Assembly: GCA_014281115.1 (NCBI GenBank)
Contig: JACONQ010000017.1
Span: 558,001-622,000, forward strand
Origin: Laburnicola sp. R22_1
Taxonomy: Eukaryota; Ascomycota; Dothideomycetes; Pleosporales; Didymosphaeriaceae
Direction: 5' to 3'
Length of the DNA: 64,000 nt
The notes beneath the pieces were generated by a model that was not told the DNA's origin, ran no database searches, and was given only the letters and a program-made list of their open reading frames with translations. A program made the position numbers and the translations under genes. Below, in pieces: positions 40,651-44,923 of this stretch. Numbering within the stretch: position 1 is the first letter of the stretch; each line of letters opens with the position of its first letter.

Positions 40651-42141
40651 ATGAGTGCCATATTGACCGACCGGCAAGCCGAAGAACTGTGAGTGCAAAG
40701 AGACTGGGATGGCGGGCAGCACACTGACACGGTGCGGACAGCCACAAGGCCATAATAGCGTATTTAGGCGTAATCAACGCGCCCAACACAGCAGCCGCTT
40801 TTCGGGAAGAGGTGCACATTCCACCCAGTTTCGACGATGCGACGCGGAAGAAGTACGAAGGCCTGCTGGAGAAGAAGTGGACCAGCGTAGTGAGGCTGCA
40901 GAAGAAGGTCGATGCCCCATGTTACTGGCCGTGGCACATTTCGCTGAGACAAACAGGTCCTCGAGCTCGAACAGCGGAACCAAAGCCTCCAAAGCGAACT
41001 CGACTCAACCACCCCCACGTCCCTCCTCCGCAAGAACCAAGACCCCACAAGCTGGCTACCCCGAGCGCCAGCGCGCCATACCCTCCAGTCCCACCGCTCA
41101 CCGATAACATGTGTCGCTTTCCACCCGATTTTCTCTTCGCTCGCTTCCGGTTCTGAAGATGCAACAATCAAAATTTGGGATTGGGAGATGGGTGAGCTTG
41201 AACGCACAGTAAAAGGCCACACCAAAGGGGTGCTAGGCGTGGATTTTGGCGGACCAAGAGGAGGAACGCTGCTGGCATCGTGCTCCAGCGACCTGACGAT
41301 AAAGCTCTGGGACCCGTCAGACGAATACAAGAATATCCGCACGCTCCCTGGACATGACCACTCTGTTTCCGCCATCCGATTCATACCTAGCGGGGCTGCG
41401 GGTTCGCCATCGTCTGGAAATCTACTCGTTTCAGCGTCACGAGACAAAACTCTGAGAATATGGGACGTCACGACTGGCTACTGCGTTAAAACTATTCGGG
41501 GTCATGTGGACTGGGTGCGTGATGTTGCTCCCAGTTTCGACGGCCGATGGCTACTGTCTGCGGGAACCGATCAGACGGCGCGTCTATGGGACGCTAATTC
41601 CGGCGAAGCCAAATGCACATTCCTAGGCCACGAGCATGTCATTGAATGTGTTGCGATAGCGCCGCCTGTATCATATGCGAACCTCGCATCGCTTGCAGGT
41701 ATTAAGAAGCCCCCACCGCTAAGCAGCTCCGCCGAGTTTGTTGCCACTGGCTCACGAGACAAGACGATAAAAATATGGGACGGGCGAGGGACATTGATCA
41801 AAACGCTCGCCGGTCACGACAACTGGGTTCGGGGCCTAGTTTTTCATCCGGGAGGGAAATATCTTCTTTCTGTGAGCGACGACAAGACGATACGCTGCTG
41901 GGATCTCACCCAAGAAGGTCGATGCGTCAAGACGGTATCTGACGCTCACTCGCACTTTGTCAGCTGCATACGTTGGGCACCAAACGTCGTCAAAGACGTT
42001 TCAGTCAATGGCGATGCAGCGAACGGGGCGTTGGTGAACGGAGTGAACAAGAAGAAAGAGGAAGAAGCTGCGAAAGCGGGGATAAGATGTGTCATAGCGA
42101 CGGGGAGCGTCGATCTGGACGTTCGCATATTCGCTTCTTGA
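40651..42141 (+). CDS. pac1: nuclear distribution protein Pac1/NudF (LIS1 orthologue)
   Basis: Dynein regulator: with NudE it binds the dynein motor, keeps it on microtubules at plus ends and is needed for nuclear migration. Exons 40651-40688, 40742-40907 and 40957-42141 give 462 aa, the usual family length. Residues about 8-40 form the LisH dimerisation motif ([16 protein letters not shown]). [19 protein letters not shown] leads into a short coiled coil, and seven WD40 repeats fill about residues 105-460, with visible IKIWDWE, IKLWD, LRIWD, ARLWD, IKIWDG, IRCWD and VRIFAS ends. The second intron uses the unusual donor GTCGAT but is required to keep [10 protein letters not shown] in frame as in orthologues. 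An Asn/Gly/Lys insert near residue 425 ([11 protein letters not shown]) is typical of fungal versions. Confidence 0.95.
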
Positions 42142-42893
42142 TTTACGTGGAAGACTTAATCACACCGCAAGTCTTCAACAAGCGTAAAGTTCTCGACGCT
42201 CTTGAGCGCGTCTAGAGCACGGCAGAGCACGCCGTCTCAGCTATCTAACCCCTCAGCGCGGGTTTCTCCATCTGTGATGAGGAGAGATTGCAAGGCGGAT
42301 TCTGTTCTTCACTTGGTGGACCATCTGCAACTCTCTTCTTAGGTTGGATGGCGCTTCATGGATTCATGTATGATTACCTGAATAGCAGTCTCAAGAGGGG
42401 TTTCTTACATGGAGTTGCCGTGCACAGAACGGGACGGTTGGTGGATCATATAGGGTAGGTACTGCGTTGCGACCGATAGAGCGGCTTTATCCACAGGTCG
42501 TGATTACTGGACATTGTTCCATTCTGCAATGTACATAATGAACTGTCTATTAAACTGGACCTTGCCTATGCAGCTCATATTTCTCTATGCATTTTGTCGC
42601 ACGCGCCTTGAGTTCGGCTAGGCGGGCGGGCGCCCGAGGGCCACTGCACGTGACACTAGCTTGCCAAGGAAACGGTGACTAAGAGCCCACCTGCGCTAGC
42701 TTCTGCTGAAAAATCAGCTCTAAGCTCCGCTCCGAGCTTTATCTTTTCTCTGCAACTGTCTCCGCCAGCAATTATCCTCTACCCTCACCATCCTCCCATG
42801 AGGGCTTTGTCCTGCCCCGCGACCAGTTTTAACCTCCGTTCACCGAGCGATGTATACTTGGAAGCAATCAGTCGCGGGGTTCTAGTCCACCAG
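42142..42893. other. pac1 3' region, then promoter and first exon of the snoRNA host transcript
   Basis: No protein-coding gene. The first exon of the snoRNA host ends at 42893 (CCAG|GTCAGT). A pyrimidine-rich stretch at about 42738-42800 could lie near the start of transcription, which I cannot place. Confidence 0.5.
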
Positions 42894-42923
42894 GTCAGTA
42901 CTCTCTATTTCTCGTCCTGGACA

Positions 42924-43014
42924 CCTACATGATGATACATATAGCCATTTACAAACTAGAGTCTTTGACCTCTCGGGGAATGAAACTTACGCTTTGCACG
43001 TCAGTCTGAAAGGA
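42924..43014 (+). ncRNA. snR78: C/D snoRNA, snR78-like (LSU Um2421)
   Basis: Box C ATGATGA at 42929-42935 and box D CTGA at 43006-43009, closed by a short CCT/AGG stem. The D' guide 42952-42963 (CAAACTAGAGTC), upstream of a degenerate D' TTGA at 42965, is complementary to LSU GACTCTAGTTTG. The fifth base before D' pairs with the U equivalent to yeast U2421, the snR78 site. The second guide before box D (TTTGCACGTCAG) is perfectly complementary to conserved LSU CTGACGTGCAAA; the +5 rule then selects the A of CTGA, about A757 in my yeast count, which I do not know as a yeast methylation site. Confidence 0.92.
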
Positions 43015-43214
43015 TTGGTTCGGCCACTGTTCGAAATCGGAAAACATTGCAAGAATTGTGCTGACGCGACACAGATGGACTTTGAATTGCCATGACCATG
43101 GCTTAGATGACCCGCGCTGGCAACTAACTGCTCTCTTTTAGCAACAGGACGCTCATCGTATCTGGTATTGTGGCCACTACGCGTTGTACGTATACTTCTC
43201 ATTTCTCCTTCTGC

Positions 43215-43304
43215 TTTCTATGATGAACATTCTGTGCTTCGGCACAGCTGGAATTACTGGCTGAGACTTAGTCGATGTCGAAAAAATGGCTGTTACTGAT
43301 CTAC
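43215..43304 (+). ncRNA. snR77: C/D snoRNA, snR77-like (SSU Um578)
   Basis: Box C ATGATGA 43220-43226, D' CTGA 43261-43264, a C'-like GATGTC near 43273, and D CTGA 43296-43299. The D' guide (GCTGGAATTACTG, 43247-43259) pairs with the universally conserved SSU segment CGGTAATTCCAGC with one G-U pair. The fifth base before D' faces the U equivalent to yeast U578, the snR77 target. The D guide has no obvious rRNA partner. Confidence 0.93.
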
Positions 43305-43418
43305 TCCTACTCTTGCGCACCTATTGATGCATAGCAAGATTCTTATCGCTGACACGCTTTCTGATAGGGTTCCGTCGCCTCGTTGGTACGCATCACCCTC
43401 CTCCTCGTATAGCCACGC

Positions 43419-43508
43419 TTCCTATGATGAATAACGGCACTGGGCACCGATCATTCGTGATGGACAAGTCCTATTGGCAGGCCTAGAAAACCTCGCCCAC
43501 TGATTTCG
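43419..43508 (+). ncRNA. snR76: C/D snoRNA, snR76-like (LSU Cm2197)
   Basis: Box C ATGATGA 43424-43430, D' CCGA 43447-43450, C' GTGATGG 43457-43463, D CTGA 43500-43503. The D' guide (GGCACTGGGC) is complementary to LSU GCCCAGTGCT with a terminal G-U pair, placing the third C of GCCC (yeast C2197) opposite the fifth base before D'. The duplex is about 10 bp, shorter than for its neighbours. The choice of D box is less certain than that of the C box. Confidence 0.87.
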
Positions 43509-43636
43509 CCGACGTCCTCTTAACCCAAGATTGAAGTTACGGATCGTGCTGATTGGAAATCAGGGCTTGCGGTCAACGACGCATGTAATGCGCTGTATAA
43601 TCTGTCTGGTACGGCTCCTCCCTACTTCTTCCCCCC

Positions 43637-43726
43637 AAAGAGATGAGACCTCTTTAGATGACGAGTCTGACGGGTTTCCCTCTGAAGACACCATCTTTTA
43701 ATACCATTCATGCATAACTGAACTTT
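43637..43726 (+). ncRNA. snR75: C/D snoRNA, snR75-like (LSU Gm2288)
   Basis: Box C is a variant, AGATGAG at 43641-43647. D' CTGA is at 43667-43670 and D CTGA at 43718-43721. A terminal stem AAAG (43637-43640) / CTTT (43723-43726) encloses the boxes. The D' guide TTAGATGACGAG (43654-43665) is perfectly complementary to LSU CTCGTCATCTAA; the fifth base before D' pairs with the G equivalent to yeast G2288. An alternative D box at 43682 would make the RNA unusually short. Confidence 0.92.
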
Positions 43727-43835
43727 ACCATTCACTTTATCACTGCCCATGCCGTTGAGCATACCCCAACTGACTCATTTACAGAACCGCAAGCTGTTCT
43801 TCGTGGTACGCTATACAAATTTCCCCTTGCTAGCC

Positions 43836-43915
43836 ACACTATGATGAACCGACAACACAAAGACAAGCATATGTCCAAGCCTCGGCGACGACGACACCTG
43901 TCACGTCTGAACTAC
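43836..43915 (+). ncRNA. snR74: C/D snoRNA, snR74/U27-like (SSU Am28)
   Basis: Box C ATGATGA 43841-43847 and box D CTGA 43907-43910. The guide AGACAAGCATATG (43861-43873) is perfectly complementary to the SSU 5' region CATATGCTTGTCT. With a degenerate D' CCAA at 43875-43878, the fifth base upstream pairs with A28 (yeast numbering), the site of yeast snR74 and human U27. The D-box guide has no target I recognise. Confidence 0.94.
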
Positions 43916-44045
43916 GCCTTGCTCTCTACGCTCCTCGCGACCTTGCAGACGCCAACTAACATTGGCAACAGACCTGCTGAAGCCAGCAGCTCATTCGCTC
44001 CTTTGCGTATTGTGTAAGTTCCCTTGAATCTCCTCACTTCCGACT

Positions 44046-44134
44046 TTACAAGATGAACATTCATTTATCACGACGGTCTACCGAGCTACGGCTATGGTGA
44101 TAATCGCCTGTGACAGGGCAAGAGTCTGACAATA
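44046..44134 (+). ncRNA. snR73: C/D snoRNA, snR73-like (LSU Cm2959)
   Basis: Box C AGATGAA 44051-44057, D' CCGA 44081-44084, C' GGTGATA near 44096, D CTGA 44126-44129. The guide TCACGACGGTCTA (44068-44080) is perfectly complementary to LSU TAGACCGTCGTGA, in the peptidyl-transferase domain. The fifth base before D' faces the C equivalent to yeast C2959, the snR73 target. Confidence 0.93.
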
Positions 44135-44210
44135 TATTGTCTTTTTCAACTTCACTTGCATATCAATGAAGACTAAGCGCTAACCATTAGCAGATTGATA
44201 TCAGTCCATG

Positions 44211-44559
44211 TCCCCAAGCCCAACCTGTTGCGATCGCATACACGTCCACTTGCCACTTGCTACAAAGTCATCACCTGGCCAGCTTTGGACCCCTATTTGC
44301 CTGGCTGATCTCTGCATCTGTTCTGTTCCCATATGATTCACGATCAAGCTTTGTCGATACTGACCAACAGAAACAATATTCATTGCCAGCTCAGGATATC
44401 AAGTACTCCACCGTGAAGGGACTCTAGGTTCCCATCGCCGACACCATCCATAACCAAACTGTAGCTCTACCAAGCTGTTTCCGTCCACATTCGGGTAGGT
44501 CCATCGTTGTCCCAAAGACCCGGCCGTCCTGCCGAAAGAGTATACAATAATAGCCTAGC
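44211..44559. other. intergenic: downstream of the snoRNA cluster
   Basis: Contains the last exon of the host transcript for an unknown distance and the 3' region of the next minus-strand gene. A weak C/D-like pair (ATGATTC near 44333, CTGA near 44361) is too close-spaced to call. No seventh snoRNA was found. Confidence 0.45.
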
Positions 44560-44923
44560 TCAATACAATCCAATCGTAATGTCTCCCCGTATCCTCGCCG
44601 TCAAGTGAATCTCAGCCTCCAGATCCAACTTGATACCGAGAAGGAGCGCGGCATCCTTGAGCTTGCCGTTGTCGTCGACAGGCCCCTTGATGAGGGAACC
44701 TGCGGGCCTGTTGAGACCGGATGAAGATGGTGCTTGAGGTTGAGAAGGGTAGCTGCTGCCGACGTTTGCACTGATCTTGCGACCGCCGGACGCTTGACCG
44801 TCGTTGGAGTCGGAGTCGGACATGTAGCCGGCGGGGCGGGTTGCGGGGCGGGGTGTGGATTCACTGGACGAAGGGTGAGTGCGTGTTGAATAAGTAGGGA
44901 TGAATCACTTACACGCCAGACAT
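44560..44923 (-). CDS. small acidic/Ser-rich protein, 104 aa, function unknown
   Basis: Two exons: 44913-44923 (11 nt, encoding MSG and part of V) and 44560-44863, joined through a 49-nt GTAAGT...CAG intron. The product begins MSGVESTPRPATRPAGYMSD and ends ARIRGDITIGLY. The N-terminal 65 residues are disordered and rich in Ser, Pro and Gly. The C-terminal 40 (DDNGKLKDAALLLGIKLDLEAEI onward) are amphipathic and look like a conserved domain, but I do not recognise the family. An internal Met (MSDSDSNDG, 44823) could start a shorter 87-aa form without splicing. The tiny first exon carrying the start codon is the reason such a gene is easily missed. Confidence 0.72.

Follow-up and report, generated by a model that had tools for sequence, protein, structure and literature searches.

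A cluster of six box C/D snoRNAs occupies the plus strand of the interval that separates PAC1/LIS1 from a small open reading frame (ORF) on the minus strand. We read this locus, at a probability of roughly 95%, as a non-coding snoRNA host gene orthologous to the fungal "snoRNA gene cluster I," from which the snoRNAs would be released through spliced introns. What the DNA shows directly are the box motifs, the complementarity of the guides to reference rRNA, the order of the RNAs, and the geometry of the splice signals. Judged by its sequence, the locus is real and is an ordinary further ortholog of the published fungal intronic snoRNA cluster.

Genomic setting

The window, by which we mean the whole 64,000-nucleotide stretch analyzed, corresponds to positions 558001-622000 of its contig in an assembly of 63.9 Mb and 26 contigs. 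The upstream gene, PAC1/LIS1, ends at 42141, and WD40 repeats were detected in it. Among the best 120 of 3,397 matches to PAC1/LIS1, the top match is 93% identical, that of Alternaria novae-zelandiae is 91% identical, and those of Periconia, Polyplosphaeria, Melanomma, Amniculicola, and Bimuria are 88 to 90% identical. All six genera, like Phaeosphaeria nodorum, belong to the Pleosporales, so the organism is most likely a member of this order. The downstream neighbor is an 87-amino-acid ORF on the minus strand (44560-44823), and no ORF longer than 85 amino acids lies between it and PAC1/LIS1.

Six box C/D snoRNAs in a conserved order

Rfam cmscan was run over the whole 64-kb window at the gathering score and, with lax settings, over 4 kb. 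Four matches in the whole window reached the gathering score, all of them in the cluster and on the plus strand (Table 1). The lax scan returned 13 matches, including snR77 and snR76 models that overlap Afu_300 and Afu_513, as well as weak snR78 and SNORD27 matches coinciding with the first and fifth RNAs. The E values of these two (2.2 and 8.2) are at chance level, as illustrated by a chance match to mir-432 at E 5.5. Both snR78/72 and snR74 fall below the Rfam cut-off, so they are supported instead by their boxes, their guides, and their location within introns. All six RNAs carry the D box CTGA, and the C box is an exact ATGATGA in four of them and GAGATGA or AAGATGA in the other two; with both boxes counted, the span from one to the other is 70 to 82 nt. 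The sequence-only reading had placed six C/D snoRNAs in this seemingly empty gap, in the order of yeast snR78-77-76-75-74-73, and had proposed a covariance-model search. That search agrees with it, with four RNAs above the Rfam cut-offs and snR78 and SNORD27 appearing only in the lax scan, and each of the six RNAs has both boxes. The plus-strand order snR78-77-76-75-74-73 is confirmed by the Rfam scans together with the guide test described below.

Table 1. Coordinates in the window of the six snoRNAs, their guides, and the predicted host structure
Feature	Position	Strand	Details
First exon of host (predicted)	42760..42893	+	5' end undefined, start arbitrary; short ORF from 42798
Predicted intron 1, 181 nt, hosts snR78/72	42894..43074	+	GTCAGT 42894, CTGAC 43061, CAG; D box to branch A, 55 nt
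snR78/72 double-guide C/D snoRNA	42925-43011	+	C box 42929, D box 43006; Rfam snR78 E 2.2, below cut-off; boxes, guides, intron position
snR78/72 D' guide	42952-42963	+	LSU U2421, 12 nt vs background fungal rRNA; D' TTGA 42965
snR78/72 D guide (snR72 site)	42993-43004	+	LSU A876, 12 nt vs Rfam consensus; box D CTGA 43006
Predicted intron 2, 182 nt	43186..43367	+	GTACGT, CTGAC 43349, TAG
snR77 (Afu_300, RF01509)	43216-43301	+	C box 43220, D box 43296; Rfam 53.4 bits, E 2.8e-7
snR77 guide	43246-43257	+	SSU U578 (Rfam consensus); D' CTGA 43261
Exon 3, 18 nt (predicted)	43368..43385	+	Flanked by predicted splice sites
Predicted intron 3, 178 nt	43386..43563	+	GTACGC, CTGAT 43549, CAG
snR76 (Afu_513, RF01514)	43420-43505	+	C box 43424, D box 43500; Rfam 73.2 bits, E 4e-13
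snR76 guide	43437-43446	+	LSU C2197, 10 nt (Rfam consensus); D' CCGA 43447
Predicted intron 4, 176 nt	43609..43784	+	GTACGG, CTGAC 43770, CAG
snR75 (RF01185)	43638-43723	+	C box 43640, D box 43718; Rfam 70.6 bits, E 2.5e-12
snR75 guide	43654-43665	+	LSU G2288 (Rfam consensus); D' CTGA 43667
Predicted intron 5, 166 nt	43806..43971	+	GTACGC, CTAAC 43956, CAG
snR74 (U27 type)	43836-43912	+	C box 43841, D box 43907; SNORD27 match 43836-43908, E 8.2, below cut-off; boxes, guide, intron position
snR74 guide	43861-43873	+	SSU A28, 13 nt vs background fungal 18S; weak D' CCAA 43875
Predicted intron 6, 180 nt	44014..44193	+	GTAAGT, CTAAC 44180, CAG
snR73 (RF01207)	44046-44131	+	C box 44050, D box 44126; Rfam 40.8 bits, E 0.0034
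snR73 guide	44068-44080	+	LSU C2959, 13 nt vs background 28S; D' CCGA 44081
Last exon/3' part of host (predicted)	44194..44560	+	3' end undefined, end arbitrary; after last predicted 3' splice site

Seven guides in six RNAs

The guide test scored the length of perfect complementarity in 42 pairs (six RNAs by seven sites), with 2,000 dinucleotide shuffles per pair. Target sequences for SSU U578 and LSU A876, C2197, and G2288 were the Rfam eukaryotic consensus, taken from its alignment to a stray rDNA contig, and not the fungus's own rRNA, while those for SSU A28, LSU U2421, and LSU C2959 were fungal rRNA taken from background knowledge. All seven expected pairs have 10 to 13 nt of perfect complementarity to the reference rRNA, and the 35 other pairs have 4 to 7 nt. 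Across the seven expected pairs, 1, 0, 0, 4, 2, 0, and 0 of 2,000 shuffled RNAs matched for as long as observed. The 91 model positions between C2197 and G2288 agree with yeast numbering. Around A28 the Rfam consensus differs from the background fungal sequence, so that site rests on the latter. With D' boxes read from the expected register and not located independently, the D/D'+5 position holds CTGA at three of the seven guides, a box with one mismatch at three (TTGA, CCGA, and CCGA), and one with two mismatches at snR74 (CCAA). Seven yeast functions would be carried by six RNAs, the seventh guide being that for the snR72 site (LSU A876) in the first RNA. The six sites named by the sequence-only reading stand, but its count of six guides does not, as it had missed this second, 12-nt guide in the snR78-like RNA.

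Reference rRNA was sought in several places. Neither the 5.8S family (39 of 1,488 candidates scored) nor two rDNA patterns matched nuclear rDNA in the fungus's own assembly, which in the form analyzed appears to lack it. The bacterial SSU model had one match in the genome, on a 76.7-kb contig; this contig is the mitochondrial genome, because bacterial-type SSU and LSU and 10 tRNAs lie within 9.5 kb of it, and the match was consequently ruled out as the fungus's own nuclear rRNA. Over up to 9.5 kb of the mitochondrial genome, none of the six RNAs has complementarity longer than 9 nt. In viral contigs, plasmids, and phages, the patterns and the segment tried revealed no eukaryotic rRNA, and the snR76 pattern, used to look for relatives of the cluster, was, as expected, absent from viral and prokaryote contigs. 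Six contigs of bacterial MAG records (L004-L009) contain the exact eukaryotic 28S pattern, and Rfam recognized eukaryotic rRNA in two of them, L005 and L006. Five of the seven sites are present in the divergent but real eukaryotic rDNA of L006, where complementarity reaches 10 nt at A876 and G2288 alone; for G2288 this is circular, since a pattern containing that site had been used to retrieve the contig. Isolated chance complementarities of 10 to 11 nt are present in the six stray contigs, and the 10-nt C2197 guide is therefore weak if taken alone.

Two D-proximal stretches were also seen. That of snR76, GGCCTAGAAAACC (43480-43492), fits both the yeast-type snR76 model and the Aspergillus Afu_513 model and has no match of at least 10 nt in L005 or L006. 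In Table 1 of Liu et al. (2009, PMC2780460), however, the Neurospora crassa snR76 homolog is given with a D' guide only. That of snR75, CCATTCATGC (43704-43713), is complementary to GCATGAATGG of the Rfam LSU consensus, some 20 nt downstream of G2288, perhaps as an accessory pairing.

Predicted introns and host transcript

Each of the six snoRNAs lies in its own predicted intron (Table 1), whose 5' splice-site motif GT[AC][AC]G[TCG] lies 32 to 39 nt ahead of the C-box core. Downstream of every snoRNA is a branch motif CT[AG]A[CT] followed by YAG, with 49 to 55 nt from the D box to the branch-point A and 10 to 15 nt from there to the 3' splice site. These splice rules were set after inspection of the six introns, and over both strands of the window 116 of 127,000 positions satisfy both, the cluster sites counted in. 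The claim of one snoRNA per intron in the sequence-only reading is supported by splice signals in all six predicted introns. Inner exons would be 18 to 45 nt long, apart from an exon 2 of 111 nt if the 43074 site is used, and the lax Rfam scan found no snoRNA match in 44194..44560.

The end of intron 1 is ambiguous, with possible alternative 3' splice sites at 43141 (TAG) and 43147. Use of TAG 43141 with CTAAC at 43124 would stretch the distance between D box and branch A to 118 nt; CAG 43074 is preferred because it restores the common spacing, and 43074 and 43141 may both be used. Depending on this site, the longest ORF in the predicted spliced RNA is 42, 60, or 58 amino acids, and the host appears to be non-coding.

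According to a review, vertebrate-type intronic C/D snoRNAs assemble best when they lie some 50 nt ahead of the branch point, and the splicing factor Aquarius helps in this assembly (PMC8162545). The 49 to 55 nt of this cluster are close to that value, and the genome encodes Aquarius (PF16399, E 2e-151). We tentatively suggest, as a possibility somewhat short of even odds, that branch-point spacing of C/D snoRNAs in filamentous fungi is constrained as in vertebrates, with assembly coupled to the spliceosome via Aquarius, and that the choice of the intron 1 3' site alters the ORF and could tune decay of the host RNA, leaving snoRNA output unaffected.

We infer transcription, splicing, processing, and methylation for this cluster as follows. 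RNA polymerase II would produce one precursor carrying all six snoRNAs, from which the spliceosome would excise the six short introns, every one of them holding a single C/D snoRNA some 50 nt ahead of its branch point. The snoRNP proteins would bind during the splicing stage, and each lariat would be debranched and then trimmed to the C/D ends, the exons probably being discarded. The six RNPs would guide 2'-O-methylation at seven sites, namely, LSU U2421, A876, C2197, G2288, and C2959 and SSU U578 and A28.

Alternative explanations

One alternative is that the RNAs are released as in Saccharomyces cerevisiae, by RNase III cuts between the snoRNAs of an unspliced precursor, in which case the splice-like motifs here would be remnants. 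The same cluster is described as unspliced in S. cerevisiae and close relatives (PMC3596301), and one 6-bp hairpin with an AAGC loop occurs at 43974-43989. However, all six predicted introns retain their three splice signals, tightly spaced, which speaks against such a route, as do folding z-scores between -2.1 and +1.9 across seven segments (five between snoRNAs, the leader, and the tail), in which no AGNN loop was found on an unbroken stem of at least 5 bp. We consider this route very improbable. The hairpin itself, CTGCTG-AAGC-CAGCAG, lies two bases past the intron 5 3' splice site in a segment with a folding z of -2.1 and is possibly due to chance. In Schizosaccharomyces pombe, Pac1 is reported to cleave a hairpin at an exon-exon junction (PMC12508059).

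Release from spliced introns, the reading that we prefer, would apply to all six RNAs. The Rfam E values of 2.2 (snR78) and 8.2 (SNORD27) and the CCAA D' box of snR74 are what one might expect if snR78/72 and snR74 had decayed and only four RNAs were functional. Yet these two have some of the longest guides (12, 12, and 13 nt, of which two were scored against background rRNA), exact C and D boxes, and the same intron geometry as the other four, and a fused snR78/72 would be expected to score low against a snR78-only model, which makes decay of the pair highly unlikely. Chance resemblance to C/D motifs does produce isolated hits, with an exact C box and CTGA at 55 to 100 nt found elsewhere in one pair on the plus strand and five on the minus strand. 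As an account of the whole cluster, chance is contradicted by the Rfam scores, the seven in-register guides, and the six introns of equal layout taken together, and its probability is negligible.

Relation to known snoRNA clusters

Fungal cluster I is given as snR78-77-76-75-74-73-72 by Luo et al. (2013, PMC3596301). In that paper, the snoRNAs of three clusters are intronic in Euascomycetes, Basidiomycota, and Rhizopus, and the snR78/72 recombination occurs in all Euascomycetes examined and in Yarrowia. With all fungi and clusters pooled, 323 of 460 analyzed snoRNAs are predicted to be intronic, and 83 introns were verified; Phaeosphaeria nodorum is among the species covered. The same source regards the intronic state as older and the unspliced yeast form as derived by decay of splice signals. 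Compared by description, the present locus shows no difference of principle from the Euascomycete form of cluster I (PMC3596301), with order, one snoRNA per predicted intron, the snR78/72 RNA, and a seemingly non-coding host alike. Comparable clusters had been described in the sequence-only reading as known "in principle"; the type is indeed known, but the implied novelty is not upheld, as the same order, intronic layout, and snR78/72 fusion are published for filamentous ascomycetes (PMC3596301). A literature search made without a species name returned nothing on this species' own locus. No separate snR72 was found with an exact pattern of snR72 guide plus box D, which differing guides escape; the pattern occurs at three places in the genome: in the cluster, at a site without a C box (L012), and at a site with a C-like box, one base off register, and no Rfam match at an E value of 1 or below (L013).

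The order of the six RNAs and their guide targets are the same as in the S. cerevisiae snR72-snR78 polycistron. In contrast to the predicted introns here, that polycistron is an unspliced precursor (PMC3596301), which supports the contrast drawn in the sequence-only reading between an intronless yeast precursor and an intronic arrangement here. The snR72 RNA is separate in S. cerevisiae (PMC2780460), whereas its guide lies within the snR78-like RNA here.

In Table 1 of Liu et al. (PMC2780460), N. crassa CD5 has two guides, that of snR72 next to D and that of snR78 next to D', as does the first RNA here; CD24, CD12, CD7, CD21, and CD31 are listed with the D' guides of snR77, 76, 75, 74, and 73. 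All six are given as intronic and on chromosome VI, and from this table and the text of the paper they would appear to form one cluster. CD24 is also listed with a D guide for U5-Am62 (PMC2780460). In the snR77 of our cluster a D guide for U5 is not supported, as the match at the U5 locus is only 8 nt long and does not adjoin box D. Liu et al. report RT-PCR of the N. crassa cluster hosts, with alternative splicing by exon skipping in two (PMC2780460); the predicted alternatives here are confined to the intron 1 3' sites. Their hosts have ORFs of 159 to 267 bp (PMC2780460), similar to the 42 to 60 amino acids of the longest spliced ORF here. An Exophiala cluster is reported to contain snR73, snR76, snR78, and Afu_300 (PMC4463862).

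Animal hosts of the UHG/GAS5 type share several features with this locus. Their exons are likewise non-coding, and each intron holds a single C/D snoRNA some 50 nt ahead of the branch point, but the set of snoRNAs is a different one. Liu et al. also compare fungal hosts with UHG/GAS5-type genes (PMC2780460).

The locus is nothing new in kind and leaves general views unchanged; it adds a six-intron, seven-guide example to the published series. Its even intron layout would make it a handy natural set for testing splicing-coupled snoRNP assembly in fungi. For this fungus, what looks like an intergenic gap would be a housekeeping gene for rRNA methylation, and the locus could be annotated correctly.
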